Part shown: positions 4,732 through 39,383 of the stretch, piece after piece
Numbering within the stretch: position 1 is the stretch's first letter
How the letters are laid out: each line of letters starts with the position of its first letter
Assembly (NCBI RefSeq): GCF_016412875.1
Contig: NZ_JAEKPD010000002.1
Coordinates: 186,001 to 250,000 of the forward strand
DNA length: 64,000 bases
Origin: Palleronia pontilimi
GTDB taxonomy: Bacteria > Pseudomonadota > Alphaproteobacteria > Rhodobacterales > Rhodobacteraceae
Direction: 5' to 3'
Notes under the pieces: generated by a model
Told to the model about the DNA's origin: nothing
Seen by the model: the letters and a program-made list of their open reading frames with translations, nothing else
The model's database searches: none
Translations under genes and position numbers: made by a program

Positions 4732-6894
4732 TCAGGCAAAGGTGTCCGCGAAGGTGTTGCGATAGATCGCGGACAGTTCGGACAGCGGCGCGCTGGCGCG
4801 GCCAAGGCTGACCTGGTCGCCGCCGAAGCGTCCGATGGGCGTCAGCCAGACCTGCGCCTTGCCCGCCGCGACCATCAGCGCGTCGGCCTGATCGAAGGTG
4901 CAGGCCAGAAGGTAGCGGCCTTGGTCTTCGCCGAACAGGCTGGCGGTCTTTCGCTTCTTGTCGACTGTGACACCGATGCCCGCGGCTTCTGCCATCTCGA
5001 AGGCCGCAAGGGCGATGCCGCCGTCCGAGACATCGGTGGCCGCCGTCACGCAGTCTCGGTTCTCCAGCAGGAAGCTGCCGTTCTTCCGCTCGGCTTCCAG
5101 GTCGACGGGCGGGGGCGGGCCTTCGTCGCGGCCCCAGGCGGCGGCCAGCAGGGCCGAGCGGCCCAGGTGGCCATGGGTCTGCCCGAGCACGAGCAGCAGG
5201 TTGCCGGGCTGCGGAAGGCCGCCGATTACCTGGTCCGCGCGGGCGATCAGCCCGACGGCGCCGATGGTGGGCGTGGGCAGGATGCCCTTGCCGTCGGTCT
5301 CGTTGTAAAGCGACACGTTGCCCGACACGATCGGCATGTCCAGCGCTTCAACCGCGGCGCCTATGCCTTTGATCGCGCCCACGAATTGGCCCATGATGCG
5401 GGGCTTTTCGGGGTTGCCGAAGTTCATGTTGTCGGTGGTCGCCAGCGGGGTCGCGCCCACGGCGACGAGGTTGCGATAGGCCTCGGCCACCGCCTGCTTG
5501 CCGCCTTCGACCGGGTCGGCAAAGACGTAGCGGGGCGTCACGTCGCTGGTGAAGGCCAGCAGCTTGTCGGTGCCGTGGACGCGCACGATGCCGGCACCCA
5601 GTCCGGGCGGGCGCACGGTGTCGGCCATCACTTGAGTGTCGTATTGCTCGTAGATCCACTGCTTGGCGGCGTGGTTGGGTTGCGAGATCAGCGCGCGCAG
5701 CCCTTCGATCGGGTCGATCTTGGGGGCGTCGACGAGGTCCGGCGCGGGCGGCGTTTCTTCCCAGGGGCGATCGTATTCCGGCGCGCTGCCCGACAGGGTG
5801 CGCAGGGGCAGGTCGGCCTTCACGTCGCCGCCATGCTCGATAATGAAGCGGTCCTCGGCGATGGTTTCGCCCACGATGGCGAAATCCAGGTCCCATTTGT
5901 CGAAGACGGCCTTCGCCTCGGCTTCCTTCTCGGGGCGCAGCACCATGAGCATCCGCTCCTGGCTTTCCGACAGCATCATCTCGTAGGCGGTCATGTTGTC
6001 TTCGCGGACGGGCACCGCGTCGAGGTTCAGCCGGATGCCAAGGCCGCCCTTGTCGCCCATCTCCACGGCCGAGCAGGTCAGGCCCGCGGCGCCCATGTCC
6101 TGAATCGAGATGACGGCGCCGGTCTGCATCAGTTCCAGGCATGCCTCCATCAGCGATTTCTCGGTGAAGGGGTCGCCCACCTGCACGGTCGGGCGCTTTT
6201 CCTCGATCGTGTCGTCGAACTCGGCGCTGGCCATGGTCGCGCCGCCGACGCCGTCGCGGCCCGTGCGCGCGCCCAGATAGACGACCGGCATCCCGATGCC
6301 AGAGGCGGCCGAGTAGAAGATCTTGTCGGCATCGGCCAGGCCCGCGGCAAAGGCGTTGACCAGGCAATTGCCATTATAGGAGGGATCGAACCGCACTTCG
6401 CCGCCGACGGTGGGCACGCCGAAGCAGTTGCCATAGCCGCCGATGCCCTCGACGACACCGTGGACCAGCTGCCGCGTCTTGGGATGCGTGGGGTCGCCGA
6501 AGGACAGCGCGTTCATGGCCGCGATGGGGCGCGCGCCCATGGTGAACACGTCGCGCAGGATGCCGCCGACGCCGGTGGCCGCACCCTGGTAGGGCTCGAT
6601 ATAGCTGGGGTGGTTGTGGCTTTCCATCTTGAAGACCACGGCCTGCCCGTCGCCGATATCGACCACACCCGCGTTTTCGCCCGGCCCGCAGATCACCTGT
6701 GGGCCGGTGGTCGGAAGGGTGCGCAGCCATTTCTTGGACGACTTGTAGGAACAATGCTCGTTCCACATGGCCGAGAAGATGCCGAGCTCGGTGAAGCTGG
6801 GCTCGCGGCCGATGATCTCGAGGATGCGCTGGTATTCGTCGTCGCTCAGACCATGGGCAGCGATCAGGTCGGGGGTGATGGCGGGATCAGACAT
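4732..6894 (-). CDS. purL: Phosphoribosylformylglycinamidine synthase subunit PurL
   Basis: 720 residues, the small (PurQ/PurS-dependent) form of FGAM synthase, fourth step of purine synthesis: an ATP-driven amidotransfer onto FGAR. Visible hallmarks are [15 protein letters not shown] and [30 protein letters not shown] at the N-terminal active site, [17 protein letters not shown], and the second half with [13 protein letters not shown] and [13 protein letters not shown] use the start MSDPAITPD rather than the more upstream in-frame ATG at 7041 because the family starts here and the upstream part is non-conserved; it would also overlap the terminator at 7006-7035. The BolA operon follows in the same direction 60 bp later. 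Confidence 0.96.
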
Positions 6895-7005
6895 GGCTCT
6901 CCGGCGGGATGGCGCGATTTGCGCCCTCATAGCCGCTTGAAGCGGGATTTGCCAACGGGGACACGAACGCAACGTGATGCGCATATCTCCTGAAGTGTCC
7001 GGGAC

Positions 7006-7035
7006 AAAAAAATGGCCGGGCACAAGGCCCGGCCA
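7006..7035 (-). terminator. Intrinsic terminator (minus strand)
   Basis: Perfect 8-bp GC stem (GGCCGGGC / GCCCGGCC, loop ACAAG), extended by one A-T pair, followed on the minus strand by seven Ts. It ends the sRNA candidate and/or lysR read-through before purL. Confidence 0.85.
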
Positions 7036-7084
7036 GTCCAACAGGGAGGTGAAGCCGACGAGAGCGTATCGTCGCCGTCTTCAC
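7006..7084 (-). ncRNA. Candidate trans-acting small RNA (about 79 nt)
   Basis: On the minus strand a promoter-like pair (TTGATA, 17-nt spacer, TATCTG) is followed 6-7 nt later by a first hairpin whose stem begins at the predicted first base (GTGAAG...CTTCAC outer stem, CGACGA...TCGTCG inner stem). A single-stranded linker containing CACCTCCCTG follows, then a GC-rich hairpin with seven Ts. This promoter, 5' hairpin, C/U-rich unpaired linker and intrinsic terminator layout is typical of Hfq-dependent sRNAs, and the linker is complementary to Shine-Dalgarno sequences. No protein is encoded. Not assigned to a named family. Confidence 0.6.
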
Positions 7085-7089
7085 GAGAG

Positions 7090-7118
7090 CAGATAGAGCC
7101 CAAGGTTTGACCTATCAA
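7090..7118 (-). promoter_or_regulatory. Sigma-70-type promoter for the sRNA candidate
   Basis: -35 TTGATA (7118-7113) and -10 TATCTG (7095-7090) with an ideal 17-nt spacer on the minus strand. The predicted transcription start falls at about 7084, exactly where the first hairpin of the sRNA candidate begins. It lies 52 bp past the lysR stop. Confidence 0.55.
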
Positions 7119-7169
7119 GCGCTGAGCGGTGATAAACTGTGCAGTTCAGCTATGCGCTTGGCGCATGGC

Positions 7170-8120
7170 TTACGAAGCCGCCGCTTCCAGCACCTTGGCC
7201 GAGAGCGCGAGCTCTTCCAGCACGAAGTCCCGAAAGGCGACGATCCTTTTGGAATTCCGCAATTCTTCTGGATAGGCAAGATAGACGGGGATCTGGGCGG
7301 ACTCGATTTCGGGCAGAACGCGGACGATCTCGGGGAAGTCCGCGATGACGTAATCGGGCAACACTCCGATCCCCAGGCCGTGCAGAACGCCCTGCAGCAC
7401 GCCGAAATAGTTGTTCACCGTCAGGGTGGACGGGGTGCCCATCGCCGTGAGCGACTGGATAAGCATCTCGCCCGCCGACGCCTGCTGCGAGCGCACGTTC
7501 TGCGAGATCAACCTGTGATCCTGAAGATCATCGGGCTTTTGCGGAACACCGTGCTCTTCCAGGTAGTCCGGCATCGCGTAAAGCCGCATCCGCACCGTGT
7601 TCAGCCGTTTGCGCACCAGGTCGGCCTGGCTGGGCTCTTTCATGCGGATGGCCAGATCCGCCTCGCGCATGGGCAGGTCCAGCACGCGTTCTTCCAGCAT
7701 CAGGTCGATCTTCAGATCGGGGTATTTCTCGTAAAGCTTGGGCAGTCGCGGCACCAGCCACAGGGTGCCGAAGCCGGTGGTGGTGGTCACGCGCAATTCG
7801 CCGAACACCTCTTCGCGGCTGTCGCGGATGCGGGCGGCGGCGGTTTCCAGGCGACGGTTCATGGACGACGTGGCGTCGTGCAGCAATTCGCCCTGTTCGG
7901 TCAGGATCAGGCCGCGGGCGTGGCGATGGAAGAGCGTCGTGTCGAGCGATTGCTCCAGCGCGCGGATCTGGCGCGACACGGCGGACTGGCTCAGGTGCAA
8001 GGTATCGCCGGCCGCGGTAAGGCTGCCTGCATCCGCCACTGCGTGAAAGATCCGCAGCTTGTCCCAATCCATGGCGCGATACATCCGAAGCTGTGTAATA
8101 TTGCGATCTTGTATCGACAT
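7170..8120 (-). CDS. LysR-family transcriptional regulator
   Basis: 316 residues. The N-terminal winged helix-turn-helix (about residues 18-78) reads WDKLRIFHAVADAGSLTAAGDTLHLSQSAVSRQIRALE, a textbook LysR DNA-binding domain, followed by a linker helix and the two-lobed periplasmic-binding-like effector domain (GTLWLVPRLPKLYEKYPDLKIDL onward). The start has GCAAAGGACGG upstream. It is divergent from the indolepyruvate oxidoreductase gene with only 94 bp between starts, the classical arrangement for a LysR regulator and its target. That gap carries a long inverted repeat (8133-8180), so I infer control of the oxidoreductase and autoregulation. The effector is unknown. Confidence 0.92.
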   Translation of the reverse strand: MSIQDRNITQLRMYRAMDWDKLRIFHAVADAGSLTAAGDTLHLSQSAVSRQIRALEQSLDTTLFHRHARGLILTEQGELLHDATSSMNRRLETAAARIRDSREEVFGELRVTTTTGFGTLWLVPRLPKLYEKYPDLKIDLMLEERVLDLPMREADLAIRMKEPSQADLVRKRLNTVRMRLYAMPDYLEEHGVPQKPDDLQDHRLISQNVRSQQASAGEMLIQSLTAMGTPSTLTVNNYFGVLQGVLHGLGIGVLPDYVIADFPEIVRVLPEIESAQIPVYLAYPEELRNSKRIVAFRDFVLEELALSAKVLEAAAS

Positions 8121-8214: not shown

Positions 8215-11200
8215 ATGCGCCACGACGTGAGCCTTCAGGACAAGTACGACCTGTCGAAGCACCACGTCTTGCTGAACGGCACACAAGCGCTGGTGCGGCT
8301 GATGCTGATGCAGAAGGCGCGCGACCGGGCGGCGGGGCATGATACGGCCGGTTATGTCACCGGCTATCGCGGCTCGCCGCTGGGGGCGGTGGACCTGCAG
8401 ATGGCCAAGGCGGGCAAGCTGCTGACCGCAAGCGACATCGTTTTCCAGCCCGGCCTGAACGAGGATCTCGCCGCCACCGCGCTGTGGGGCACCCAGCAGG
8501 CCGGGCTGCGCGGCGATGGCAAACATGACGGGGTCTTCGGCCTTTGGTACGGCAAGGGTCCCGGCGTCGATCGCTCGGGCGACGTGATGCGCCACGCCAA
8601 CATGGCGGGCACCGCGCCCTTGGGCGGCGTGATCATGGCCATGGGCGACGATCACACCGGCGAATCCTCCACCACCTGCCACCAGTCCGACTGGGCCATG
8701 GTGGATGCCTACATGCCCGTGCTCAGCCCGGCGGGCGTGCAGGAAATCCTGGATTTCGGGCTTTACGGCTTCGCCCTGTCGCGGTTCGCGGGCGTCTGGG
8801 CCGGGCTGAAGCTGATGAAGGACACGGTCGAGGTCACGAGCGTCGTGGATGGCCGCCCCGACCGCATGTCGTTCGTGACGCCCGACTTCGCGTTGCCGCC
8901 CGACGGGCTGCACATCCGGCTGGCCGATCACTGGGTCGCGCAGGAAGCGCGGATGGTGAATTACAAGCGCCACGCGGCCGAGGCGTTTTCGCGCGCCAAC
9001 CGCATGGACCGCCGGGTCTGGGGCAAGCCGGGCGCGAGTATCGGGCTGGTGGCGGCGGGCAAGAACTGGCTGGACCTGCAACACGCGCTGGGGCTTCTGG
9101 GCCTTGACGCGGGCGCGTGCGAGCGGCTGGGGATCACCACCTACAAGGTCGGCCAGACCTGGCCGCTGGACATGGACGGCTTCCACGACTGGGCCGAGGG
9201 GTTGGACCTGGTCATCGTGGTCGAGGAAAAGCGCAAGCTGATCGAGGTGCAGATCAAGGAGGCGCTGTTCGACGACCGCAAGGGCCGCCGCGTCTATGGC
9301 TGGCACAAGGGCGACACGTGGGAACATGGCCGCCGACTGGTGCTGTTTCCCGTCGCCATGGCGCTGGACCCGGTGCAGATCGCCGAAAAGCTGGGCGATA
9401 TCTTCATCGAGGAAGGGCGCGACAGCGACCACATGCGCGGTGCGCTGGGTCGGGTGCGCGACGCGCGCCGCGCCGACAACGCCCCCGAGATCGCGTCCCG
9501 GCTGCCCTATTTCTGCGCGGGCTGCCCGCACAACACGTCGACCAAGGTGCCCGAAGGCTCGCGCGCCTATGCCGGGATCGGCTGTCACTTCATGGTGCAG
9601 TGGATGGACCGCGACACGCAGGGCTTCACTCACATGGGGGCAGAGGGCGCGAACTGGATCGGCGAGGCGCCGTTTTCCAAGACCCACCACGTCTTCCAGA
9701 ACCTGGGCGACGGGACCTACAACCACTCGGGCCTGATGGCGATCCGCGCGGCGCTCGCGGCAAAGACCAACATCACCTACAAGATCCTCTACAACGACGC
9801 GGTGGCGATGACCGGCGGCCAGCCCAATGATGGCGACCTGCATCCCGACCGCATCGCGCGCGAAATCCAGGCGGCGGGCGTGAAGCATATCGCCGTCGTC
9901 TATGATCCCAAGGAAGAGCCGGTGCGCGACGGCTACCCAAAGGGGCTGACCTGGTATGAACGCGACGACATGCCCGCCGTGATGGAGCGGATGCGCGCGG
10001 TCGAGGGCGTCAGCGCCATCATCTACATCCAGACCTGCGCCGCCGAGAAGCGCCGCCGCCGCAAGCGCGGTACCTTCCCCGATCCCGACACCCGCGTCTT
10101 CATCAACACCGATGTCTGCGAAGGCTGCGGCGATTGCGGCGTGCAGTCGAACTGCGTCGCCATCGTGCCGGTCGAGACCGAGCTGGGCCGCAAGCGCGCC
10201 ATCGACCAGTCCAGCTGCAACAAGGATTACAGCTGTCTGAAGGGCTTCTGCCCGTCCTTCGTCACCGTCGAGGGCGGCGAGATCCGCAAGGAAGCCACCG
10301 CCGAGATCGACGTAGGCCATCTGCCGGACCCCGAATTGCCGAAGATCGACGGCACGCACAACGTCGTCATCACCGGCGTGGGCGGCACCGGGGTCGTGAC
10401 CATCGGCGCGGTGCTGGCGATGGCGGCGCATCTGGACGGCAAGGGCGCGGGCATGATGGAAATGGCGGGGCTGGCCCAGAAGGGCGGCGCGGTGCATATC
10501 CACTGCCGCCTGGCCGAGCGGCCCGAGGATATCAGCGCCATCCGCGTGGCCAGCGGCGAATGCGACGCGCTGGTAGGAGGCGACCTGGTGACCAGCGCGG
10601 GCGCCAAGACGCTGGGGCTGATGCGGACGGGGCGGACCGGGGGCGTGGTCAACAGCCACGAGATCATGACTGGCGATTTCACACGCGACACCGCGTTCCG
10701 AATCCCCGCGGACGAGCTGTCTATTGCCCTGGAGCGGCGCCTGGGAGACGATCTGCAGCTGTTCGATGCCTCCGAATTGGCGCGCGTGCTGATGGGCGAC
10801 ACGATCTTTTCCAACATGATCGTCTTCGGCGCGGTCTGGCAGCGCGGATTGATCCCGGTGGCCCATGACGCCATCCTGGCGGCGATCGAGATGAACGGCG
10901 CCGCGGTCGCGCGCAACCAGCGCGCGTTCGAGCTGGGACGCTGGGCGGCGGTGAACCCCGACGGCGTCGCGCGGGTCCTTCATCCAACCGTGGTCGCCAA
11001 GCCAAAGTCGCTGGACGAGCGCATCGCCTTTCGCGCCGAGCACCTGCGCGCATTTCAGGGCAAGCGGCTGGCGAAACGGTATCTGAAGCGGCTCGAAGGG
11101 ATCACCGACCTCGAGGTGAAGGCCGCCGTGGCCGAGGGCTATCACAAGCTTCTGAGCTACAAGGATGAATACGAAGTGGCGCGACTTCTGCGCGCAACCC

Positions 11201-19362: not shown

Positions 19363-20139
19363 ATGAACTACGAGACCATCCGCCTGTCGGTTCGCGACGG
19401 CGTCGCCGTTCTCACCTTCCGCCGTCCCGAAAAGATGAACGCGCTCACAGCGCAGATGCGGGCAGAGATCCTGCACGCGGTCAAGAATCCCGGGGAAGAC
19501 GCGCGCGTGCTGGTGATGACGGGGCAGGGCGCGTCGTTTTGCTCAGGCCAGGATCTGGGTGACAGCGTCAGCCTGGACCAGGCCGACCTGGAACGCGTGC
19601 TGCGCGATGAATACGAGCCCATGCTGAAGGCCATCTACGACAGCCCGATCCCGACGATCAGCGCGGTCAACGGACCGGCGGCGGGCGCGGGTGCGAACCT
19701 GGCGCTGTCGGCGGACGTGGTGATCGCCACGCAAAGCGCGGTGTTCCTGCAGGCGTTCACGCGGATCGGGCTGATCCCGGATGCCGGTGGCACCTATTGG
19801 CTGCCGCGCCAGATGGGATTCGCAAAGGCCATGGGGGCGGCGCTGTTCGCCGAGCCGGTGACTGCACGCCAGGCGGCCGATTGGGGCATGATCTGGGAAG
19901 CGGTCGACGACGACGCCTTCCAGGATCACTGGTGGAGCCGTGCCCAACATCTGGCAAAGGGGCCGACCGTGGCCTATCGCAACGTGAAGCGGGCCTTGCG
20001 CGGCACCTACGAGAACGGCCTGCAGGCGCAGCTGGACCTAGAAGCGTCGCTTCAGGGGGAATGCGGGCAGACGCGGGACTTCAAGGAAGGCGTCGTTGCG
20101 TTCCTGGAAAAGCGCAAGCCCGACTACCAGGGCCGCTAG
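19363..20139 (+). CDS. Enoyl-CoA hydratase/isomerase family protein, PaaG-like
   Basis: 258-residue crotonase-fold protein. It has the oxyanion-hole segments SFCSGQDLGD and AVNGPAAGAGANLALSAD, and the LIPDAGGTYWLPRQMG block in which the Asp is the catalytic acid of PaaG-type isomerases, while the usual hydratase Glu pair is not evident. That points to a 2-(epoxydihydrophenyl)acetyl-CoA isomerase or related ring isomerase rather than a plain beta-oxidation hydratase. No other paa genes are in the window, so the pathway is unproven. Its stop shares the TAG of a CTAG with the convergent transglutaminase gene. Confidence 0.85.
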   Translation: MNYETIRLSVRDGVAVLTFRRPEKMNALTAQMRAEILHAVKNPGEDARVLVMTGQGASFCSGQDLGDSVSLDQADLERVLRDEYEPMLKAIYDSPIPTISAVNGPAAGAGANLALSADVVIATQSAVFLQAFTRIGLIPDAGGTYWLPRQMGFAKAMGAALFAEPVTARQAADWGMIWEAVDDDAFQDHWWSRAQHLAKGPTVAYRNVKRALRGTYENGLQAQLDLEASLQGECGQTRDFKEGVVAFLEKRKPDYQGR

Positions 20140-21049: not shown

Positions 21050-22150
21050 ATGCCCGATATGAGCAATCTTTTTTCGCCGATCATGATGGGCGGCGTCGAG
21101 CTGCCCAACCGCGTCCTGATGGCGCCCCTGACGCGCAACCGGGCGCAGTCGGACGGCACGCCCAAGGACATGGCGCAGATCTACTATGCCCAGCGGGCCA
21201 GCGCGGGCATGATCCTGACCGAGGCCACCCAGGTCTGCGCCATGGGCAAGGGCTACCTCGACACGCCGGGCATCTATACCGACGATCACGTGACGGGCTG
21301 GAAGAAGATCACCGATGCGGTGCACGCGCAGGGCGGCCGGATCTACATGCAGCTGTGGCATGTGGGCCGGATCAGCCACGTGTCGCTCTTGCCCGAAGGC
21401 CGCAAGCCTTTGGCGCCCTCGGCGGTGCGGGCCGACCAGCAGACCTTCACCGCCAACGGGTTCGAGGATTGCTCGGAACCCGAAGTCATGAGCGTCGAGC
21501 AGATCCGCGAGACCATCGAGCATTTCCGCCACGGCGCCGAGATGGCGAAGAAGGCGGGGTTCGACGGGGTCGAGGTCCACGCCGCGAATGGCTATCTTCT
21601 GGACCAGTTCCTGAAGGACGGCGTCAACAAGCGCGATGACGATTACGGCGGCACGCCCGAAAAGCGGATGCGGATCGTGTCGGAAATCATCGACGCGGTG
21701 GCCACTGTCTGGCCGCGCGACCGGATCGGCGTGCGCGTATCGCCCTACGGCAATTTCAACGACATGTCCGACAGCGACCCGGAGGCGCATTTCACGCCGG
21801 TCTACAAGATGCTGAGCGACAAGAAGCTGGCCTATCTGCACGTGGTCGAGCAATTCCCGGGCAGCGAGACGGACGACGCGACGATGCAAAGCCTGAAGCG
21901 GTTGGGCGATCTTTACGACGGGTTCATCATCAGCAACGGCGGCTACACGCCGGAGAAAGCGTCGCAGGCGGTCGCGTTGGGGCATTGCCACGCGGTGACC
22001 TTCGGGCGCGACTTCATCGCCACGCCGGACCTGCCCGAACGCATCCGCACGGGCGTCGCGTTGAACGAGCCGGACCCCGACACGTTCTATGGCGGCGGCG
22101 AGGAAGGGTACATCGACTATCCCTTCATGGACGAAATCAAGGCCGCCTGA
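21050..22150 (+). CDS. Old Yellow Enzyme family ene-reductase (NemA-like)
   Basis: 366-residue FMN-dependent NADPH oxidoreductase with a TIM barrel. Hallmarks: NRVLMAPLTRNRA near the N-terminus, MQLWHVGRISH, the substrate-binding H-x-x-N motif in VEVHAANGYLLDQFL, DDYGGTPEKRMRI, and the phosphate-binding FGRDFIATPDLPERI. It reduces activated C=C bonds in electrophiles such as N-ethylmaleimide, nitro esters or enals. Monocistronic, with an intrinsic terminator 24 bp after the stop. Confidence 0.93.
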   Translation: MPDMSNLFSPIMMGGVELPNRVLMAPLTRNRAQSDGTPKDMAQIYYAQRASAGMILTEATQVCAMGKGYLDTPGIYTDDHVTGWKKITDAVHAQGGRIYMQLWHVGRISHVSLLPEGRKPLAPSAVRADQQTFTANGFEDCSEPEVMSVEQIRETIEHFRHGAEMAKKAGFDGVEVHAANGYLLDQFLKDGVNKRDDDYGGTPEKRMRIVSEIIDAVATVWPRDRIGVRVSPYGNFNDMSDSDPEAHFTPVYKMLSDKKLAYLHVVEQFPGSETDDATMQSLKRLGDLYDGFIISNGGYTPEKASQAVALGHCHAVTFGRDFIATPDLPERIRTGVALNEPDPDTFYGGGEEGYIDYPFMDEIKAA

Positions 22151-22221: not shown

Positions 22222-22965
22222 TCAAGCCACTTCGAGCGGGTCCTGGAATGGGTCTTCCGGAGTGTCGAAATCCGCCTGTTGTTCCTCGGTGAGCGGGTCG
22301 AGCAGCAGCAGATCGTCGTCGCCGGTGACCGCGCCGTCGAGCCCGGTGCCAAGGTCGCCGTAATCCACCTGCGTTTCGTCCTCGAGGACTTCGGCTTGCG
22401 GGGGTGCGTCCTGGGTCGCATCTTCCGCCGGGGGCTGCTCTTGCGGCGGCTCGTCCATTTCGGTGGCCGCGGGCGCGCTCCCGCCGATCGTCACGCTGGC
22501 GTCGCTGGCCTCTGCGTCCTCCAGGACAACGGTGAAATCCATGGCCTCGATATCAAGCAGGCTGAGATCGAATTGGGGGTGGGACAGCGTGAAAGAGGTC
22601 TCGTCCGGCTCGTCCGAACCGCGCCCCGCGGGTCCGAGCTTCACGCTGACATCCTGTGCCTCGGGGTCGTTCGTCTTGCCGCCTTTGAAGCCGGGCCCCT
22701 TGCCGGGATTGTCGAACGCGTTTTCGTTTGGGGACGATTTCGAGATGTTCGCGCCCTTCGCGATCAGCCCGTCCAACAGGTCCGGGTCGGCAAAGTCGAA
22801 AGACACGTTCTTGATATCCCCGGCCGCGCCATCGTCATTCAGGACGCTCAGCGTCATGTCCAGGTCGCCCTTTGCGGTTTCACTGACGGTGATCTCGATA
22901 TCCACGTCGCCGGAAATGACGAACGTCATGTTGGCAAACTCTTCCGCTCCAGTTTTTCGGCCCAT
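22222..22965 (-). CDS. Acidic paralog A of the 22-27 kb island
   Basis: 247 residues, very acidic, no signal peptide, no membrane segment and no cysteine seen. The N-terminal about 160 residues share a domain with the genes at 23222 and 24493: FVISGDVDIEITVSET, VSFDFADPDLLDGL, then TSFTLSHPQFDLSLLDIEAMDF and VTIGGSAP. This copy is the most diverged: the NLGGGVNIKG and GSRDGSLK blocks of the other two are missing or altered. An acidic Pro/Gln-rich tail follows, ending LTEEQQADFDTPEDPFQDPLEVA, very like the end of paralog B. TTGGAG precedes the start. Function unknown; similar domains, as I recall, occur inside large calcium-binding type I secreted proteins, so export by such a system is an inference. 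Confidence 0.8.
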   Translation of the reverse strand: MGRKTGAEEFANMTFVISGDVDIEITVSETAKGDLDMTLSVLNDDGAAGDIKNVSFDFADPDLLDGLIAKGANISKSSPNENAFDNPGKGPGFKGGKTNDPEAQDVSVKLGPAGRGSDEPDETSFTLSHPQFDLSLLDIEAMDFTVVLEDAEASDASVTIGGSAPAATEMDEPPQEQPPAEDATQDAPPQAEVLEDETQVDYGDLGTGLDGAVTGDDDLLLLDPLTEEQQADFDTPEDPFQDPLEVA

Positions 22966-23059
22966 GCCCTACTCCAATATGCTGTTGTTCAGGCACGAGA
23001 TTGACTCAGTTTGGGGCGAATTTTTGACAAGGCATTTTACGGCCGGATCACGGTTCAGA

Positions 23060-23067
23060 ATGGTTAA
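23060..23067 (-). promoter_or_regulatory. CtrA-like half-site upstream of paralog A
   Basis: TTAACCAT on the minus strand, about 95 bp before the start of paralog A. It matches the strong half of the CtrA consensus; a second half-site 7 bp upstream is poor (ATTA). Low confidence alone. Confidence 0.25.
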
Positions 23068-23169
23068 CAAAGCGTAATCGGACGTTGCATTGTGCACCGA
23101 TCTTTGCCGGGAGACGGCTTAATTCAAAAAAATCTGGCAGCGCGCATCACGCTTGCCGACATTTCGAAT

Positions 23170-23200
23170 AAAAAAGGGCCACCGAATTGGGCGGCCCTTT
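23170..23200 (-). terminator. Intrinsic terminator of paralog B
   Basis: AAAGGGCC / GGCCCTTT stem, 12-nt loop, six Ts on the minus strand. It lies 22 bp after the paralog B stop and shows that paralogs A and B are separate transcripts. Confidence 0.85.
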
Positions 23201-23221
23201 AAATTCTCTTCTGCACTGGTC

Positions 23222-24055
23222 TCAGCCGATTGGCATCGGATCGGCGATCAGGTCTTCGGGCTCGTCGAAGGCTGCGATCTCTTCGTCCGTGAGCGGTTCG
23301 AGCCACGGCAGATCCGTGCCGTCCAACACCGGCTCTTCCGTCGGGCCGTCGACCGGATCGATCTGCTCCGGTGGCGTATCTGACAGCAATGCGTCCTCGG
23401 CGGTGGGCTGTGCGTCGATCGGCTCGTCCGGCGGCATCCCGTCGATGGGCAGGTCCGCGATGGGCTCATCCACCACGGGTTCGTCGATCGGGATGTCGTT
23501 GTCGACCGGCGTGCCGTCAGGATCATCTACACCATCAAGAACGGTCGCTTCGGGTGCCGTTCCGCCGATTTTCAGCGAACCGTCACGCGAACCGTCAATC
23601 TCGCCGACCGACGTCATGCGGACACCGAAATCCATGTTCTCGATATCGGCCAGGCTCAGGTCGTAATCGGGATGGCTGAGCGTGAACGAGGTCATTTGGA
23701 TGTCGTCCTTGGCCATCCCGGACGTGCCAAACCGAACACCGATGTCGAAAAGATCGGTGTCGTTGACCAGCTCGCCCTTGATGTTCACGCCACCGCCAAG
23801 ATTGTCCACGGCATCGTATTCGAATTGGCTGTTCGTGATATCGGCACCGTCCGCCGTCAGGCTTCCGACGAGATCCGGATCCCCGAAATCGAAGAAAAGA
23901 CCGTTCAGATCGGCGGTCATTTCACCTTCCATGACCTCAACCGTGAATTCCAGACAGCCATCGGCGGTCTCGGTCACCGTCACCTTCACGTTGACGTCGC
24001 CAGCCAGGACGAATTCCATGCTCGCAGGTACTACTTCAGTTGCTAATTCTTCCAT
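23222..24055 (-). CDS. Acidic paralog B of the 22-27 kb island
   Basis: 277 residues, extremely acidic. Start ATG 24055 has GGAG 7 nt upstream; an in-frame ATG at 24109 would add a basic, unconserved leader. The conserved domain (about residues 15-165) reads EFVLAGDVNVKVTVTET, DLNGLFFDFGDPDLV, NLGGGVNIKGELVN, FDIGVRFGTSGMAKDD, MDFGVRMTSVGE and GSRDGSLKIGGTAPEA. A roughly 110-residue tail made almost only of D, E, P, I, V, L, G and T follows, ending LTDEEIAAFDEPEDLIADPMPIG. No signal peptide, no transmembrane helix, one Cys. Probably an exported or surface-associated Ca2+-binding-type module; no function can be assigned. Confidence 0.82.
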   Translation of the reverse strand: MEELATEVVPASMEFVLAGDVNVKVTVTETADGCLEFTVEVMEGEMTADLNGLFFDFGDPDLVGSLTADGADITNSQFEYDAVDNLGGGVNIKGELVNDTDLFDIGVRFGTSGMAKDDIQMTSFTLSHPDYDLSLADIENMDFGVRMTSVGEIDGSRDGSLKIGGTAPEATVLDGVDDPDGTPVDNDIPIDEPVVDEPIADLPIDGMPPDEPIDAQPTAEDALLSDTPPEQIDPVDGPTEEPVLDGTDLPWLEPLTDEEIAAFDEPEDLIADPMPIG

Positions 24056-24059
24056 TGTC

Positions 24060-24089
24060 TCACTCCGCCTTAAGCCCCTTGCGGAGTGA
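24060..24089 (-). promoter_or_regulatory. Hairpin sequestering the paralog B ribosome-binding site
   Basis: On the minus strand TCACTCCGC / GCGGAGTGA form a perfect 9-bp stem with a 12-nt loop. The right arm contains the GGAG that serves the ATG at 24055, so the folded leader would block initiation unless opened by a factor, an sRNA or temperature. Confidence 0.5.
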
Positions 24090-24455
24090 ATGACCGCACT
24101 TTGAGGCAAGTTTTAGGCAAGTGTGTTTGAGCAGCAGACTTGTTGTCCGATCGTGGATAAAGCTGTGACGATCGAGTGATTTCAGGCTATATTCAAAACA
24201 GAGATCCGCCGTAATTCGCATTAACCTGTATTTCGACGTTCGTTCTAAGTCCCCCTGGTCCGATTGCGCCCGCTTCGATTCGCGGATGCGGTCGAAGGCT
24301 TTCCGCCGGGGCCTTAATTCAGAGGAGCAACCAGCCCTCGATCAGAGATATAGCTAAATGAATTCGGCGAGTGATCCGGGGCGGACTTGGGTGTCGGCCT
24401 TGGTCGGAAATCATCCGAGCTCTGGGATGATCGCCCGGATCCGATTGGGCGGATG
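24090..24455. other. Non-coding, relatively AT-rich spacer between paralogs B and C
   Basis: About 365 bp with no supported gene on either strand. Apart from the weak promoter for paralog B I see nothing specific. Its composition is clearly less GC-rich than the surrounding core genes, in keeping with an accessory island. Confidence 0.6.
24186..24214 (-). promoter_or_regulatory. Weak candidate promoter for paralog B
   Basis: -35-like TTACGG (24214-24209) and -10-like TATAGC (24191-24186) with 17-nt spacer on the minus strand. It would give a leader of about 125 nt that includes the hairpin at 24060-24089. The -35 is poor. Confidence 0.3.
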
Positions 24456-24482
24456 GCGGATCGCGCCTGGGACGCGATCCGC
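24456..24482. other. Strong hairpin at the 3' end of paralog C
   Basis: Perfect 10-bp arms GCGGATCGCG / CGCGATCCGC with a 7-nt loop, 11 bp after the paralog C stop on the minus strand. No T-run follows, so it is either a Rho-assisted terminator or a 3' stabiliser. Confidence 0.55.
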
Positions 24483-24492
24483 ATCATTCGTG

Positions 24493-25287
24493 TCAGAGGA
24501 TCGAGAAATCGTCGGTGATCACGCCGGGATCGAGCGGATTGTCCACCAGCAGGCCACCGTCGATGGTCGTGCTCGGATCGCTCAGGCCAAAGTCGAGCTC
24601 GCCACCCAGCAGCGGATCGTCGCCCAGAAGGGGATCGTCAAAGCCGTCCCCTGGACCGCCGAGATCCCCGAAATCGAACTCGTCATCGCCCGGGGGCGGG
24701 TTGTCGGGCAGATCGCCACCGCCGCCCGAAGGCAGGTCGTCGACAACATCATCGACCGGATCTTCGATGGCGGGCGCATCGGGGCTGGTTCCGCCCAGCT
24801 TCAGCGAACCGTCTCGGCTGCCGCCAATTTCGCCGACGGACGTCAGGCGCACCGCGAAATCCATGTTCGCTACGTTTTCTAGCGTCAGCGGCTCAGACCC
24901 GTGGGTGAGCGTGAAGGTGGTGAACTGGATGTCGTCCTTCGACATGCCCGATGTGCCCAGACGCGCGCCCGCGTCGAATAGATCGGTGTTGTTGATCAGG
25001 TCGCCCTTGATGTTGACGCCGCCGCCCAGGTTCGACACCCCGTCATATTCGAACTGGGTATTGGTGACCATTTCGCCGTCGATCATCAGACCATCCACCA
25101 GGCCGGGATTGGCGAAGTCGAAGAACAGCCCGTTCAGGTCGCCGATCATCCCATTCTTGGTCAGGACGTCGACCGTGAAGGTCAGACCGCCTTCGCCGTT
25201 TTCGGTCACGGTGACTTCGACGTTCACCTCGCCTTCGATGATGAAGCTCATGCTGCGAGCGGTGATCGGGTTCGTCATATCTGTCAT
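24493..25287 (-). CDS. Acidic paralog C of the 22-27 kb island
   Basis: 264 residues. The start at ATG 25287 has GGAG 6 nt upstream; a GTG four codons earlier overlaps that site and is less likely. The domain is closest to paralog B: SFIIEGEVNVEVTVTENGEG, GDLNGLFFDFANPGLVDGL, NLGGGVNIKGDLINNTDLFD, GARLGTSGMSKDDIQ, MDFAVRLTSVGEIGGSRDGS. The tail (about residues 170-264) is Gly/Asp/Pro-rich (SGGGGDLPDNPPPGDDEFDFGDLG) and ends ITDDFSIL, an acidic residue followed by hydrophobic residues, which resembles the extreme C-terminus of type I secretion substrates. No signal peptide or membrane segment. Function unknown. Confidence 0.82.
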   Translation of the reverse strand: MTDMTNPITARSMSFIIEGEVNVEVTVTENGEGGLTFTVDVLTKNGMIGDLNGLFFDFANPGLVDGLMIDGEMVTNTQFEYDGVSNLGGGVNIKGDLINNTDLFDAGARLGTSGMSKDDIQFTTFTLTHGSEPLTLENVANMDFAVRLTSVGEIGGSRDGSLKLGGTSPDAPAIEDPVDDVVDDLPSGGGGDLPDNPPPGDDEFDFGDLGGPGDGFDDPLLGDDPLLGGELDFGLSDPSTTIDGGLLVDNPLDPGVITDDFSIL

Positions 25288-25467
25288 GTCTTGCTCCACG
25301 CGGTATCCGGTTGGCGGAGCGGTCCCATTTCACTGGGGCAACATTCGGGCGTGGACATGATAGATTTGGTCCCTCGCATCAAACTGGAGACAATAAGGCC
25401 GCGCGATGGAAATACGCGCGGCCCCTGACACAATTAACCCTGACGGGGGATGAAACGGGTCGGCCCG

Positions 25468-27242
25468 TCAGGCGAATGCGACGCCGTCGATCTCGACGCT
25501 TTCGTCGAAGGCGAAGTCGTCTTCGCTTTCATCCACCGGGATCATCGGAAGCGGGAAGGACGGATCGAGCTCGGTTTGAGGCCGCGTGATATCGTCGATC
25601 GGCTCGGGATCCAGGGTCGGCTCACCGTCGATGACGACGCCCGGATCAATCGTCGGATCCGGCAAATCCGCGCCTTCGATGACGGCCAGCGATTTCATCA
25701 GGAACTCGCCGCGGTCGTTTTCATCAAGGCAGAAGCCGATGGCGATTTCCGAGACGCCGAACTCCTTCACCGAGATGAATTCGCCATCTTCCGCCACGGC
25801 GTCCCCGTCGTCGATCCAGAACTCCAGCCCGTCAAGCTCGTCGTCGATCAGAACGCCGTCGCCATTGGCGTCCAGCAGGACTGACATCTTGTGATAGCCG
25901 TTGACGTATTTGCCGCCCTCGTCGCCGAACAGCCGCGCGCCGTCCATGTCGTTCATGGCGTTGCCGTCACGATTGTCGATCAGGAAGCCGTCGCCGTCGC
26001 CTGTCAGCCATTCCATCGTGTCAGCCTTGCCGTCGGCGTCGATGTCGAAGCTGACAGTGTCGCCCAGCTGGTTGCCCGCCGGGTCCATCGCCGTGGTCGC
26101 GCCGGTGGTCGCGATCTTGCCGTCCATGTTCAGATCGAAGGTCACTGGCGAATGGGGGTCGTAATCCTTGACGCACAGGTCCAGCGTGCCGTCGGTCATG
26201 TTGCCTTCGCCGTCCTGGGTCGTCAGGCCGAACGAGACATCGCCGGGCAGCTCGTAGACTTCCTTGTCGGTGATCTCGATGCCTTCGCCGATGATCTTGA
26301 TAGCGACCTTGTCGTGGCCGATGTCGAGCTTGTCGATGATGATCTCTGTCGCGCCCAGATCGGCCATGAGCGCTTCGACCGATGACGTGTCGATCTGGGT
26401 CACCAGGTCGTCGGCGCCTTCGCCGAACAGGCCCGCGGTCTCGAACTCGACCTCGAGCGTCAGCTTGTCGCCGCCGCGGCTGTAGTCCCATTCCATCTTG
26501 GTGAGCTCTTCGTCGTCCTTGCAGAGTGCATAGTCTCCTGCCCTGGGGCGACGCCGAACCAGACGTCTTCGGTCATCATCAGCTGGTCGGGGATGTCGCG
26601 GTCGGGGTCGTAATCGTGGAAGCTGTCGACGATTGCCGCGCATTCGGTGGGTCCGTAATCCCCGAGCACCTCTTCGATCTGGGCCTTGTTGGCCGCGCTG
26701 AGGTAGTCCGCGTAGCTTTCCATCATGGCGTCGAGATCGGTTTCGGCCAGCGCGTGGATCGGCGCGTCTTCCGCGCCCATGTGCAGCGCGATCTCGGCCG
26801 TGTCGCCGTCGGCGTCCTCGATGGTCAGGCCCATGGGCAGCACTTCGAGCTGTGCCGCCACCTGGGCTTCGGTGGCGGTGATGCCGTTCGCCACCAACTC
26901 GAACACGATCTCGTCGTCCTTGACCACGAACTTGGTGAAGCTCATGTCCGTCGCGCCCAGATCGGCCACCAGACCTTCGATCAGCGTGGTGTCGAAGCCC
27001 GCGAAGGAACTGCCCGTGTCCTTGCCGACCAGGTCTTCGAGCTTGATCGAGACCTTCAGCGTCAGCGTGCCGTCATCGGCCTTGTAGTCGTATTCGTTGC
27101 GTTCGACCTGGGTGTTGTCGGCGAAGAAGAACAGGATGTTGTCGAACCAGTGATGCGACAGGGACGATTGGAAGGTGAAAAGCTCTTCCACCGTGGGAAA
27201 GGCGCTGGGTGTATGGACGGTGCCGGAAGGGTTCATGTGCAT
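25468..27242 (-). pseudogene. Frameshifted acidic calcium-binding-type protein (duplicated N-terminal module plus EF-hand-like repeats)
   Basis: Two overlapping frames make one protein: residues from 27242 to about 26545 in one frame, then 26545 to 25468 in another. A single added base in the run GGGG at 26545-26548 (CCCC in the coding strand) joins them into about 591 residues. The two halves carry the same module: YDYKADDGTLTLKVSIKLEDL...LVADLGATDMSFTKF in the first and WDYSRGGDKLTLEVEFETAGL...LMADLGATEIIIDKL in the second. Then follow DLNMDGKI, DIDADGKAD, GDGDGFLIDN, LDANGDGVLIDDE, matching the EF-hand-like domain common in large RTX/VCBS-type secreted proteins, and an acidic Pro-rich tail ending EIDGVAFA. 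No canonical -1 slippery heptamer is present. A sequencing error, a real pseudogene or phase variation are all possible. Confidence 0.75.
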
Positions 27243-27447: not shown

Positions 27448-27473
27448 AAAAAGGCCGCCCCAGCCGGGCGGCC
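27448..27473 (-). terminator. Intrinsic terminator of gltA
   Basis: GGCCGCCC / GGGCGGCC stem (5-nt loop CAGCC) followed on the minus strand by five Ts; 30 bp after the gltA stop. Confidence 0.88.
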
Positions 27474-27502
27474 CATTCATGGCATGCCGAGGTGTCGGCG
27501 TG

Positions 27503-28798
27503 TCAGCGATTCTCGACGTTCACGTAATCGCGGTAGGTCTCGCCCAGGTAAAGCTGGCGCGGGCGCCCGATCTTCAGTTGCGGATCGCTGATCTGCTCTT
27601 TCCACTGGGAAATCCACCCGACCGTGCGCGCCAGCGCGAAGATCGGTGTGAACATGGCGGTGGGAAAGCCCATCGCATCGAGGATGATGCCCGAATAGAA
27701 ATCCACGTTGGGATAGAGCTTCTTTTCGGCGAAATAGGGATCTTCCAGCGCGATCCGCTCGAGCTCTTTCGCCACCTGAAGGGTCGGGTTGTTCTCGATC
27801 CCCAGCAGGTCCAGCACCTCGTCGGCGGATTGCTTCATCACCTTCGCGCGCGGGTCGAAGTTCTTGTAGACCCGGTGGCCGAAGCCCATCAGGCGGAAGG
27901 GATCGTTCTTGTCCTTGGCGCGCTTGATATATTCGGGGATCTGGTCGGCAGTCCCGATCTCGCGCAGCATTTCCAGGCACGCCTGGTTCGCGCCGCCATG
28001 GGCCGGTCCCCAGAGGCAGGCGATGCCCGCGGCGATGCAGGCAAACGGGTTGGCGCCCGAGGACGAGGCAAGGCGCACGGTCGAGGTGGACGCGTTCTGC
28101 TCGTGGTCGGCGTGCAGCGTGAAGATCCGGTCCATGGCGCGGCTGAGGATCGGGTTCACGACGTAGTCTTCAGCAGGCACGCTGAAGCACATGCGCAGGA
28201 AATTGGACGCGTAGTCCAGGTCGTTGCGCGGATAGACGAAGGGCTGGCCGATGGAATACTTGTAGGCCCAAGCGGCGATGGTCGGCATCTTGGCGATCAG
28301 GCGGATCGACGCGACCTCGCGCTGCCAGGGATCGCTGATATCGGTGCTGTCGTGGTAGAAGGCCGACATGGCACCCACGACACCGACCATGACCGCCATC
28401 GGGTGCGCATCGCGGCGGAAGCCCCGGAAGAAGTTCATCATCTGCTCGTGCAGCATGGTGTGCTGTGTCACGCGATGCTCGAAATCCTCGAGCTGCGCGG
28501 CGTCCGGCAATTCGCCGTAAAGCAGCAGGTAGCAGACCTCGAGAAAGTGGGATTTCGCGGCCAGTTGGTCGATGGGATAGCCGCGGTGCAGCAATTCGCC
28601 CTTGTCGCCGTCGATGAAGGTGATCGTGCTGTCGCAGGCGGCGGTCGAGGTGAAGCCCGGATCGTAGGTGAACACACCGGCCTGCGCGTAGAGCTTGCGG
28701 ATGTCGATGACATCGGGACCGGCGGTGGGCGTGTGGATCGGCAGCTCGACCTCGGTATCACCGAAGCTGAGTTTCGCGGTCTTCTGTGCGTCGGCCAT
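27503..28798 (-). CDS. gltA: Citrate synthase
   Basis: 431 residues, type II hexameric length. It condenses oxaloacetate and acetyl-CoA to citrate at the entry of the TCA cycle. Catalytic residues are seen in context: His in [12 protein letters not shown], His in [16 protein letters not shown], Asp in [14 protein letters not shown], and Arg in [15 protein letters not shown]. The start MADAQKTAK at 28798 has GGGAGATC upstream; the frame extends further but without conservation. gltX lies 62 bp upstream on the same strand, so they may share a transcript. Confidence 0.97.
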
Positions 28799-28860
28799 GG
28801 CCTGATCTCCCTTGTTCCATTGAGCCACGGCGGCAAGGCGCGCGGGTCTCAATCCATACT

Positions 28861-39298: not shown

Positions 39299-39383
39299 GC
39301 GGGTGTGGCGGAACTGGTAGACGCACTTGGTTTAGGTCCAAGCGCCGCAAGGCGTGGGGGTTCGAGTCCCTTCACCCGCACCA
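39299..39383 (+). tRNA. tRNA-Leu (anticodon UAG)
   Basis: 85-nt cloverleaf: acceptor GCGGGTG / CACCCGC, D-arm region with GGTAGAC, anticodon stem CTTGG / CCAAG with loop TTTAGGT (anticodon TAG at 39333-39335), long variable arm, T-arm GGTTCGAGTCC, discriminator A and encoded CCA. It reads CUN leucine codons. 23 bp upstream of tig. No integrated element is visible next to it. Confidence 0.95.

Follow-up and report, generated by a model that had tools for sequence, protein, structure and literature searches.

A gltA-linked cluster of genes for very acidic proteins in a roseobacter-type marine bacterium shares a domain named by no curated library searched

The window, by which we mean the whole stretch of 64,000 nucleotides of Palleronia pontilimi DNA analysed here, contains three related genes (W1–W3) and a broken fourth (gene 4), all for very acidic proteins of this roseobacter-type marine bacterium. 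W1–W3 have in common an all-beta domain of ~160 residues that neither curated library searched (Pfam, NCBIfam) names, as the initial annotation had anticipated. Because no library names the domain and its relatives occur in extracellular architectures, W1–W3 are best read from sequence as extracellular or surface proteins of an undescribed kind, which agrees with that annotation. Probably, W1–W3 and gene 4 encode acidic, calcium-dependent exoproteins of the matrix, biofilm or cell surface that are free of RTX repeats and are exported by a type I system of the PrtD/PrsD type. Directly observed are the domain common to W1–W3, the lack of any entry for it in the libraries searched, a recurrent chromosomal site, the extracellular architectures of relatives and a bias in C-termini and in lysine and arginine (K/R) content; type I export, the binding of calcium, a role in the matrix and the sequence of duplications are inferred.

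The cluster is flanked by genes that we take, from their sequences, to be gltA (citrate synthase) and an OYE-type oxidoreductase gene; the enoyl-CoA hydratase-type gene (ECH) beyond them was named in the same way (Table 1). Matches within the own genome, the coordinates and the alignment bear out three minus-strand paralogs with one common domain: W2 is 56% identical to W3 (E 3.4e-62) and W1 is 35% identical to it (E 7.4e-28), and beyond these three no further copy was found at E<=1 in the 64 contigs (3.72 Mb) of the assembly. The calculated pI of each is about 4.05. Of 27 test columns, namely those at least 90% conserved in the remaining alignment, W2 and W3 keep all 27 and the strongly diverged W1 keeps 15. 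Two of the motifs originally quoted for the domain, GTSGMxKDD and RLTSVGE, are lost in W1. The last ~35 residues of W1 can still be aligned by eye with W2. For W2, the mechanical ORF is 23222–24109 with a TTG start at 24109, the ATG at 24055 being the likelier start.

Table 1 Features of the gltA-linked cluster and its flanks
Feature	Position	Strand	Remarks
ECH (presumed enoyl-CoA hydratase-type gene)	19363..20139	+	second flank of the site in relatives
Presumed OYE-type oxidoreductase gene	21050..22150	+	convergent downstream flank
W1	22222..22965	-	diverged paralog, 247 aa; domain and acidic tail; C-terminus ...DPLEVA
Shared domain in W1	22462..22929	-	15/27 conserved columns kept
Terminator-like hairpin after W2	23173..23200	-	
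W2	23222..24055	-	paralog, 277 aa from likely ATG 24055; C-terminus ...IADPMPIG
Shared domain in W2	23525..24022	-	
W3	24493..25299	-	paralog, 268 aa; GTG 25299 or ATG 25287; C-terminus ...TDDFSIL
Shared domain in W3	24766..25263	-	AlphaFold2 model, all-beta
Gene 4, second frame (module copy 2)	25468..26535	-	acidic tail, end ...DGVAFA; open to 26643
Gene 4, first frame (module copy 1)	26460..27242	-	out of frame with copy 2
Terminator-like hairpin after gltA	27452..27474	-	a shorter one overlaps
gltA (presumed citrate synthase)	27503..28852	-	upstream flank; orthologs matched in this analysis

Gene 4 consists of two overlapping frames rather than one ORF, and the coding signal switches frame near 26535. 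The duplicated module described for it at the outset is real (the copies are 28% identical over 129 aa, E 2e-10), but an intact gene is not supported. The second frame bears calcium-type DxDxDG loops. The proposed EF-hand-like repeats found no support in Pfam, the model EF-hand_5 giving only E 5.4 over 9 residues; by eye, the loops look like those in the long module relatives L059 and L060. A structure model of this frame reached a mean pLDDT of 46.2, with moderate confidence only at residues ~1–122, and was left out of the fold search. Genes 1–3 are linked with gene 4 by a relative (L037) in which a single 771-aa frame joins the domain, the gene-4 module and two CARDB stretches.

At E<=10, W1–W3 matched nothing in Pfam or NCBIfam, and among five window frames compared with both libraries gene 4 alone matched, weakly; despite this setting, HMMER filters discard most matches above about E 0.1. 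When 26 aligned domains were compared with Pfam, stray matches alone appeared, the best (E 0.016, 3/26) to the Ig-like PKD. The contrary evidence named beforehand, coverage of the domain by a Pfam family of intracellular role, was not found, and the domain profile matched no PDB sequence at E<=10. The AlphaFold2 model of the W3 domain (mean pLDDT 80.5) is all-beta; in a Foldseek search of the PDB its best E was 3.2e-3, with none at E<=0.001, and among the 50 matches listed TM reached no more than 0.39 (query length) and 0.47 (target length). The nearest folds are Ig-like beta-sandwiches (p53/p73 DNA-binding domain, gamma-adaptin ear), and the likeness is limited to the general fold class. In the literature, we found nothing on this domain among the related papers listed, no report of a gltA-linked acidic secreted protein and none on an exosortase E context of the domain.

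The architectures of relatives point outside the cell, as had been proposed. One relative (L040) combines the domain with RTX nonapeptides and a serralysin C-terminal-like stretch, the serralysin match lying below the curated cut-off. Big_9 or Cadherin_4/5 modules occur in five domain proteins (L040, L043, L046, L048, L049), a VWA module in L048 and weakly in L043, and CARDB in L037. L043 also has BapA-family repeats below cut-off. One Limimaricola plasmid has the domain gene amid genes for polysaccharide synthesis and export and for exosortase E.

Of 295 genomes sampled from the family, 41 have the domain or a divergent sister form (20 by single-sequence search, 36 and 38 by profiles, the union counted by hand). 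In 24 of the 41 its neighbour is gltA or the ECH gene close by, including G165 (a weak match of about 70 residues) and G099 (linked to ECH only), and relatives in about two dozen genera keep the same kind of protein on the gltA side. For the 17 unlinked carriers, neither gene was in the fetched stretch, which extended about 6–8 kb to either side, or less where the contig stopped short (0.8 kb away for G161). Of 398 genomes sampled across the phylum, three carry the domain, and each belongs to the same family as the window's genome. Palleronia pelagia and P. salina have a single copy at the gltA site, to which W3 is the closest window paralog, and one genome of the same genus has the site without a domain gene. 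With 24 of 41 carriers linked, the site recurs across the genomes sampled, and the tandem copies are a local feature of the window. The cluster is a local variant of this recurrent chromosomal position and not a free-standing island; the accessory island first described is only partly right. The three copies would have arisen by local duplication downstream of gltA, where many roseobacter genera hold such a putative exoprotein gene.

Two other accounts of the site and its copies deserve weight. There is a real but minority chance that the cluster is a decaying remnant in which W3, and perhaps W2, still functions and W1 and gene 4 are pseudogenes or duplicates in decay. The loss of conserved columns in W1, the broken frame of gene 4, the single W3-like copy in P. 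pelagia and P. salina and damaged copies in other genomes (G070 with a stop, G107 degenerate) are all consistent with this; however, the 247-aa frame of W1 is intact, with an end that aligns by eye to W2, and W2 itself has every conserved column. There is a similar minority chance that the gltA–ECH interval is a neutral insertion hotspot at which exoprotein genes arrive by horizontal transfer. Empty and filled sites occur within one genus, and proteins with form A or B of the domain alternate there with RTX-type proteins, the latter in four other sampled genomes. Other genes occupy the position in other regions. We fetched the gltA-downstream region for 40 of 60 genomes with a gltA match, 39 of them without a match to the domain alignment A2 and one (G038) with its A2 copy elsewhere. 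Tracking of gltA by the domain is not supported: at 12 linked loci the two sets of distances gave a Spearman coefficient of 0.16 with a permutation p of 0.20, although the test is weak because gltA is so conserved. Against a hotspot, no relative of the domain was found in phage records or viral contigs, for which reason phage origin was set aside, and the window's only tRNA is at 39299.

The ends of the proteins bear on export. W1–W3 and the first frame of gene 4 have no hydrophobic N-terminal stretch (highest 15-residue Kyte-Doolittle mean in the first 60 aa, 0.61–1.35), so the earlier statement that there is no signal peptide stands. At the C-terminus, acidic residues followed by a hydrophobic end, a pattern defined after looking at the sequences, occur in 36 of 48 proteins versus 4 of 167 neighbouring ORFs and 950 of 9600 internal positions. 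These 48 are the second frame of gene 4 and 47 proteins with the domain in form A or B, W1–W3 included; L028 and L029 (same genes as L034 and L036) were left out, as were L052, L053, L117, L120 and L211–L213. Among the 12 that fail are L126B and L128B, both probably mis-extended or degenerate. Since the 167 controls were chosen by length alone and contain some false frames, the comparison was repeated with a third-position GC filter, and the contrast held (6 of 154). Two of only three acidic control ORFs pass, so composition alone could yield part of the signal.

A published C-terminal RTX motif, the ending [FLI][VAI] (given in an excerpt of PMC8861453), was found in 13 of the 48, L128B counted, versus 2/167 and 3/154 controls; it is absent from W1–W3, and gene 4 alone has it among the window's four. 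In the same excerpt the RTX C-terminal profile is depleted in E and P; here E is enriched in the last 20 residues (0.115 vs 0.051) and P is little depleted. Of 11 RTX frames in the own genome, some of which may be false genes, 3 pass the acidic-then-hydrophobic pattern, and two more have a hydrophobic end with an acidic residue 7–8 from it. The median K+R content is 1 per 29 residues (n=48) versus 1 per 8.4 (n=167) and 1 per 9.5 (n=154) in the controls; for 107 roseobacter RTX proteins, excerpted text of PMC3933643 gives 1 per 27, against a proteome mean of 1 per 11.

A candidate exporter is encoded elsewhere. Two ABC proteins of the own genome (at C1 and C45) score above the PrtD-type cut-off TIGR01842, which none of 14 control genomes passes, and the genome also contains RTX proteins. 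PrsD is a member of the PrtD-like ABC class. Adjacent type I transporter genes, which the initial annotation had suggested looking for, were not found: with the two own-genome PrtD-type proteins as queries, there was none at tblastn E<=1e-30 in 51 stretches around relatives (one of them, L214, a flank without the domain) and none in the window at E<=1e-3. It is unlikely that W1–W3 are cytoplasmic or periplasmic proteins (e.g. calcium or metal buffers) sharing a beta-sandwich with exoproteins: acidic proteins may be cytosolic in some organisms, W1–W3 have neither RTX repeats nor a signal-peptide-like stretch nor a linked transporter in the stretches searched, and some short relatives show no known extracellular module (L036 by Pfam and NCBIfam, L035 by NCBIfam only), but short gltA-linked proteins often have exoprotein-like C-termini and very low K/R, and among the longer ones there are RTX, VWA, cadherin-like and CARDB modules.

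Under type I export, the preferred reading, the products of W1–W3 and gene 4 would leave the cell in one step through the PrtD/PrsD-type system encoded elsewhere in the genome. Their signal would be the uncleaved C-terminus, acidic residues and then a short hydrophobic end, with no N-terminal signal peptide and no RTX. Outside the cell, the N-terminal beta-sandwich domain may have a binding or structural role in the matrix or at the surface, and the acidic tails and the DxDxDG loops of gene 4 may bind calcium. As sea water supplies calcium, folding and association would happen after export.

The model for this reading, by analogy, is the rhizobial Rap proteins (RapA2, RapD), alphaproteobacterial PrsDE cargo that an excerpt of PMC9298526 describes as secreted matrix proteins binding calcium and polysaccharide. 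Rap proteins are defined by Ra/CHDL, whereas the window domain has no Pfam cadherin-like match (Ra judged via Pfam models). Roseobacter RTX exoproteins, such as the abundant RTX protein of Phaeobacter DSM 17395 (excerpt of PMC3933643), have very low K/R, as here; RTX repeats accompany the domain in L040, and RTX-type proteins share the gltA site elsewhere. Unlike them, W1–W3 and both frames of gene 4 have no PF00353 match. Large adhesins of the BapA/LapF type are approached by L043, which contains the domain with Big_9 and Cadherin_4 above cut-off and NF045619 and tandem-95 below it, whereas the window proteins are short and without tandem-95, VCBS or cadherin-like repeats.

Tentatively, but plausibly, the reading may extend to a whole family, whose one new domain has two forms, A and B: an undescribed, type I-secreted and mostly RTX-free acidic family beside gltA in about two dozen of the roseobacter genera sampled, forming a hidden calcium-dependent part of the marine extracellular matrix. 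If this is right, an uncatalogued domain family would be added to the type I exoproteins of roseobacters, an abundant group in the sea, and the gltA side would be a genomic address for finding such proteins. They would also offer small RTX-free cargo for probing which C-terminal features a PrtD-type transporter recognises. Having almost no K/R residues, such proteins would be hard to see by trypsin-based proteomics, and standard tryptic exoproteomics may overlook this acidic class.

Individual regulation of the copies, first proposed from separate terminators and promoters, fared unevenly. The promoters found no support, with a single promoter-like site, on the opposite strand, where 1.1 were expected. 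There were six terminator-like sites (5.2 expected), the minus-strand ones being the hairpins after gltA and W2. A GC-rich hairpin 3' of W1 is readable by eye.

Three acidic proteins, W1, W2 and W3, carry the same N-terminal domain, which is a real family, locally tripled and undescribed in the libraries and literature searched. A search of the whole Palleronia pontilimi genome with W3 returned exactly W1–W3 (E 5.9e-171, 3.4e-62 and 7.4e-28), placing their similarity far above chance and, with the shared N-terminal domain, bearing out the three paralogs of the initial annotation. W1 has diverged strongly, keeping 15 of 27 conserved columns vs all 27 in W2 and W3. The domain had also been called undescribed, and it stayed so: W1–W3 had zero family matches in Pfam and NCBIfam (E ≤ 10), 26 aligned domains gave only stray Pfam matches (best E 0.016, to a PKD model, in 3 of the 26), and a domain profile matched no PDB sequence at E ≤ 10. 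An AlphaFold2 model, for which 11 sequences were allowed, was all-beta (mean pLDDT 80.5, pTM 0.81). Foldseek paired it only with Ig-like sandwiches (best E 3.2e-3; among the 50 matches listed, TM was ≤ 0.39 when scaled to the query length and ≤ 0.47 when scaled to that of the target). A divergent sister, form B, was first noticed as the N-terminal repeat in three two-domain proteins (L039, L042, L047) and is homologous to form A, the form in W1–W3 (hhalign probability 98.9, E 1.1e-17).

Coordinates of the acidic paralogs and the gene 4 module copies in the window
Feature	Position	Strand	Description
W1	22222-22965	minus	acidic protein, N-terminal shared domain
W2	23222-24109	minus	acidic protein, N-terminal shared domain
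W3	24493-25299	minus	acidic protein, N-terminal shared domain
Gene 4 frame with module copy 1	26460-27242		open frame
Gene 4 frame with module copy 2	25468-26643		open frame overlapping copy-1 frame

The neighbouring gene 4 had been read as one gene with a duplicated module. The duplication is real (28% identity over 129 residues, E 2e-10), but in place of a single gene there are two overlapping frames, and the coding signal switches frame near 26535. This break, seen in one assembly, may stem from a sequencing error, mark a pseudogene or have some other cause. The proposed separate promoters were not supported: promoter-like sites were at chance level and on the opposite strand (1 vs 1.1 expected). 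Terminator-like sites were near chance level (6 vs 5.2 expected), although hairpins 3' of gltA and of W2 look good as terminators.

Among 295 genomes sampled from the family, the form-A profile (A2) had matches in 36 and the form-B profile (A4) in 38, the union being 41 carriers. Outside the family the domain looks rare: a phylum sample held it in 3 of 398 genomes, all from this family, and the eight loci on named genome contigs comprised seven roseobacter-type loci and one from Arthrospira. The latter (L033, 166-7641), the sole carrier among the eight outside roseobacter-type bacteria, is a 2,492-aa open frame with one domain copy at residues 1947-2084.

The domain genes recur at one site, the interval between gltA and ECH, an enoyl-CoA hydratase-type gene; in the window this interval also contains an OYE-type oxidoreductase gene (OYE). 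In 24 of the 41 carriers, counting one linked via ECH only (G099) and one weak match (G165), a domain gene lay within this interval or adjoined either end; in the other 17, neither gltA nor ECH was seen within the fetched stretch. Palleronia pelagia and P. salina have one W3-like gene apiece between gltA and OYE (12.5 kb fetched), and a same-genus genome with no domain copy has its gltA and OYE stop codons only ~70 bases apart. The window is not alone in having tandem copies: genome G097 has two inside the interval, both of form B and in two frames (L211, ~6720-7193 and ~9205-9636). We also inspected 40 gltA-downstream regions, chosen without a linked form-A match from 60 with a gltA match. 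ECH lay within ~6.5 kb of gltA in 23 of them (fewer than 200 bases between in eight), and six of the 40 encoded an acidic protein low in K and R, two of form B and four with GGxGxD repeats. Domain distances did not track those of gltA (n = 12, rho 0.16, p 0.20), a weak test because gltA hardly varies; the site may thus have been refilled rather than strictly inherited. GGxGxD-repeat proteins occupy the same place downstream of gltA in other genera (L143, L144, L145, L149), and the site also has form-B frames, 740-772 aa long (L125, L127, L129, L139, L150), that appear by eye to be alike beyond the domain. One copy at the site is degenerate (L128, 6535-7134, genome G107). A domain copy in genome G070, broken by a TAA stop, is apparently decaying (L053, G070:C1:379259-379787).

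Relatives of W1–W3 have extracellular architectures. Pfam, run on ten of them, found RTX repeats in L040, Big_9 or cadherin-like repeats in L040, L043, L046, L048 and L049, VWA in L048 and weakly in L043, and CARDB in L037; L125 and L036 had no match, and L129 and L054 weak ones only. NCBIfam, also run on ten, gave partial matches below curated cut-offs, including those to serralysin and RTX-toxin C-terminal models in L040 and to BapA-family and tandem-95 repeat models in L043, and nothing for L048, L054, L125, L129, L036 or L035. The 771-aa L037 protein combines the domain, two CARDB stretches and a module like that of gene 4 (43% identity to its second frame, E 2.3e-69), a fusion that ties W1–W3 to gene 4. 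A Paracoccus SdrD B-like protein likewise contains the putative calcium module of gene 4. On a Limimaricola variabilis plasmid (NZ_CP139694.1), a domain gene sits amid polysaccharide synthesis/export and exosortase E genes; its product (L054) has a weak, below-cut-off thioester-domain match (E 0.0082).

In line with the initial annotation, which saw no signal peptide, the N-terminus has no hydrophobic stretch. We compared the C-termini of 47 carriers of either form (W1–W3 included) and the gene 4 second frame, two of these 48 proteins being probably mis-extended or degenerate. An acidic-then-hydrophobic ending, a pattern fixed post hoc after the sequences were viewed, occurred in 36 of 48. It was seen in 4 of 167 ORFs nearby, in 6 of the 154 making up a cleaner control set, and at 950 of 9600 positions inside the proteins; of the control ORFs only three were acidic, and two of these also passed. 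ABC-exported proteases and a lipase are described as ending in an acidic residue followed by hydrophobic ones, a motif that one study found dispensable (PMC2642768). The published RTX ending [FLI][VAI] (PMC8861453) closed 13 of 48 proteins, vs 2 of 167 and 3 of 154 control ORFs, and was absent from the C-termini of W1–W3. Over the last 20 residues D was enriched and K and R were almost absent, as in the published RTX profile; unlike in that profile, E was enriched too (PMC8861453). Median K+R was 1 per 29 residues, vs 1 per 8.4 or 1 per 9.5 in the two ORF controls, resembling the 1 in 27 reported for 107 roseobacter RTX proteins (PMC3933643).

Judged by sequence, proteins bearing the domain would be a known kind of secreted protein, with a probable matrix or surface role for the family. 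We propose that the products of W1–W3 and gene 4 would be exported in one step by a PrtD/PrsD-type system, would fold outside the cell with the help of calcium, and would act in the matrix or at the surface. The closest working analogy is with the rhizobial proteins RapA2 and RapD, described as PrsDE cargo that binds calcium and capsular or exopolysaccharide (PMC9298526); we draw an analogy only and claim no Rap membership. PrsDE is also reported to export non-RTX glycanases (PMC3034196). By Pfam, neither W1–W3 nor either frame of gene 4 has RTX repeats, which sets them apart from RTX proteins. The interest of these genes lies in their site linkage and in the likely proteomic invisibility of their products.

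The initial annotation suggested looking for adjacent HlyB/HlyD genes; none of 51 stretches around relatives yielded a PrtD-type transporter gene. Elsewhere in its own genome, P. pontilimi has two ABC proteins over the PrtD-type cut-off and 104 RTX-repeat matches, yet only 3 of its 11 RTX frames end in the acidic-then-hydrophobic pattern. One set of RTX repeats, on the same contig outside the window (G000:C12:338560-341256), falls within a 13,191-aa open frame that is perhaps a giant adhesin.
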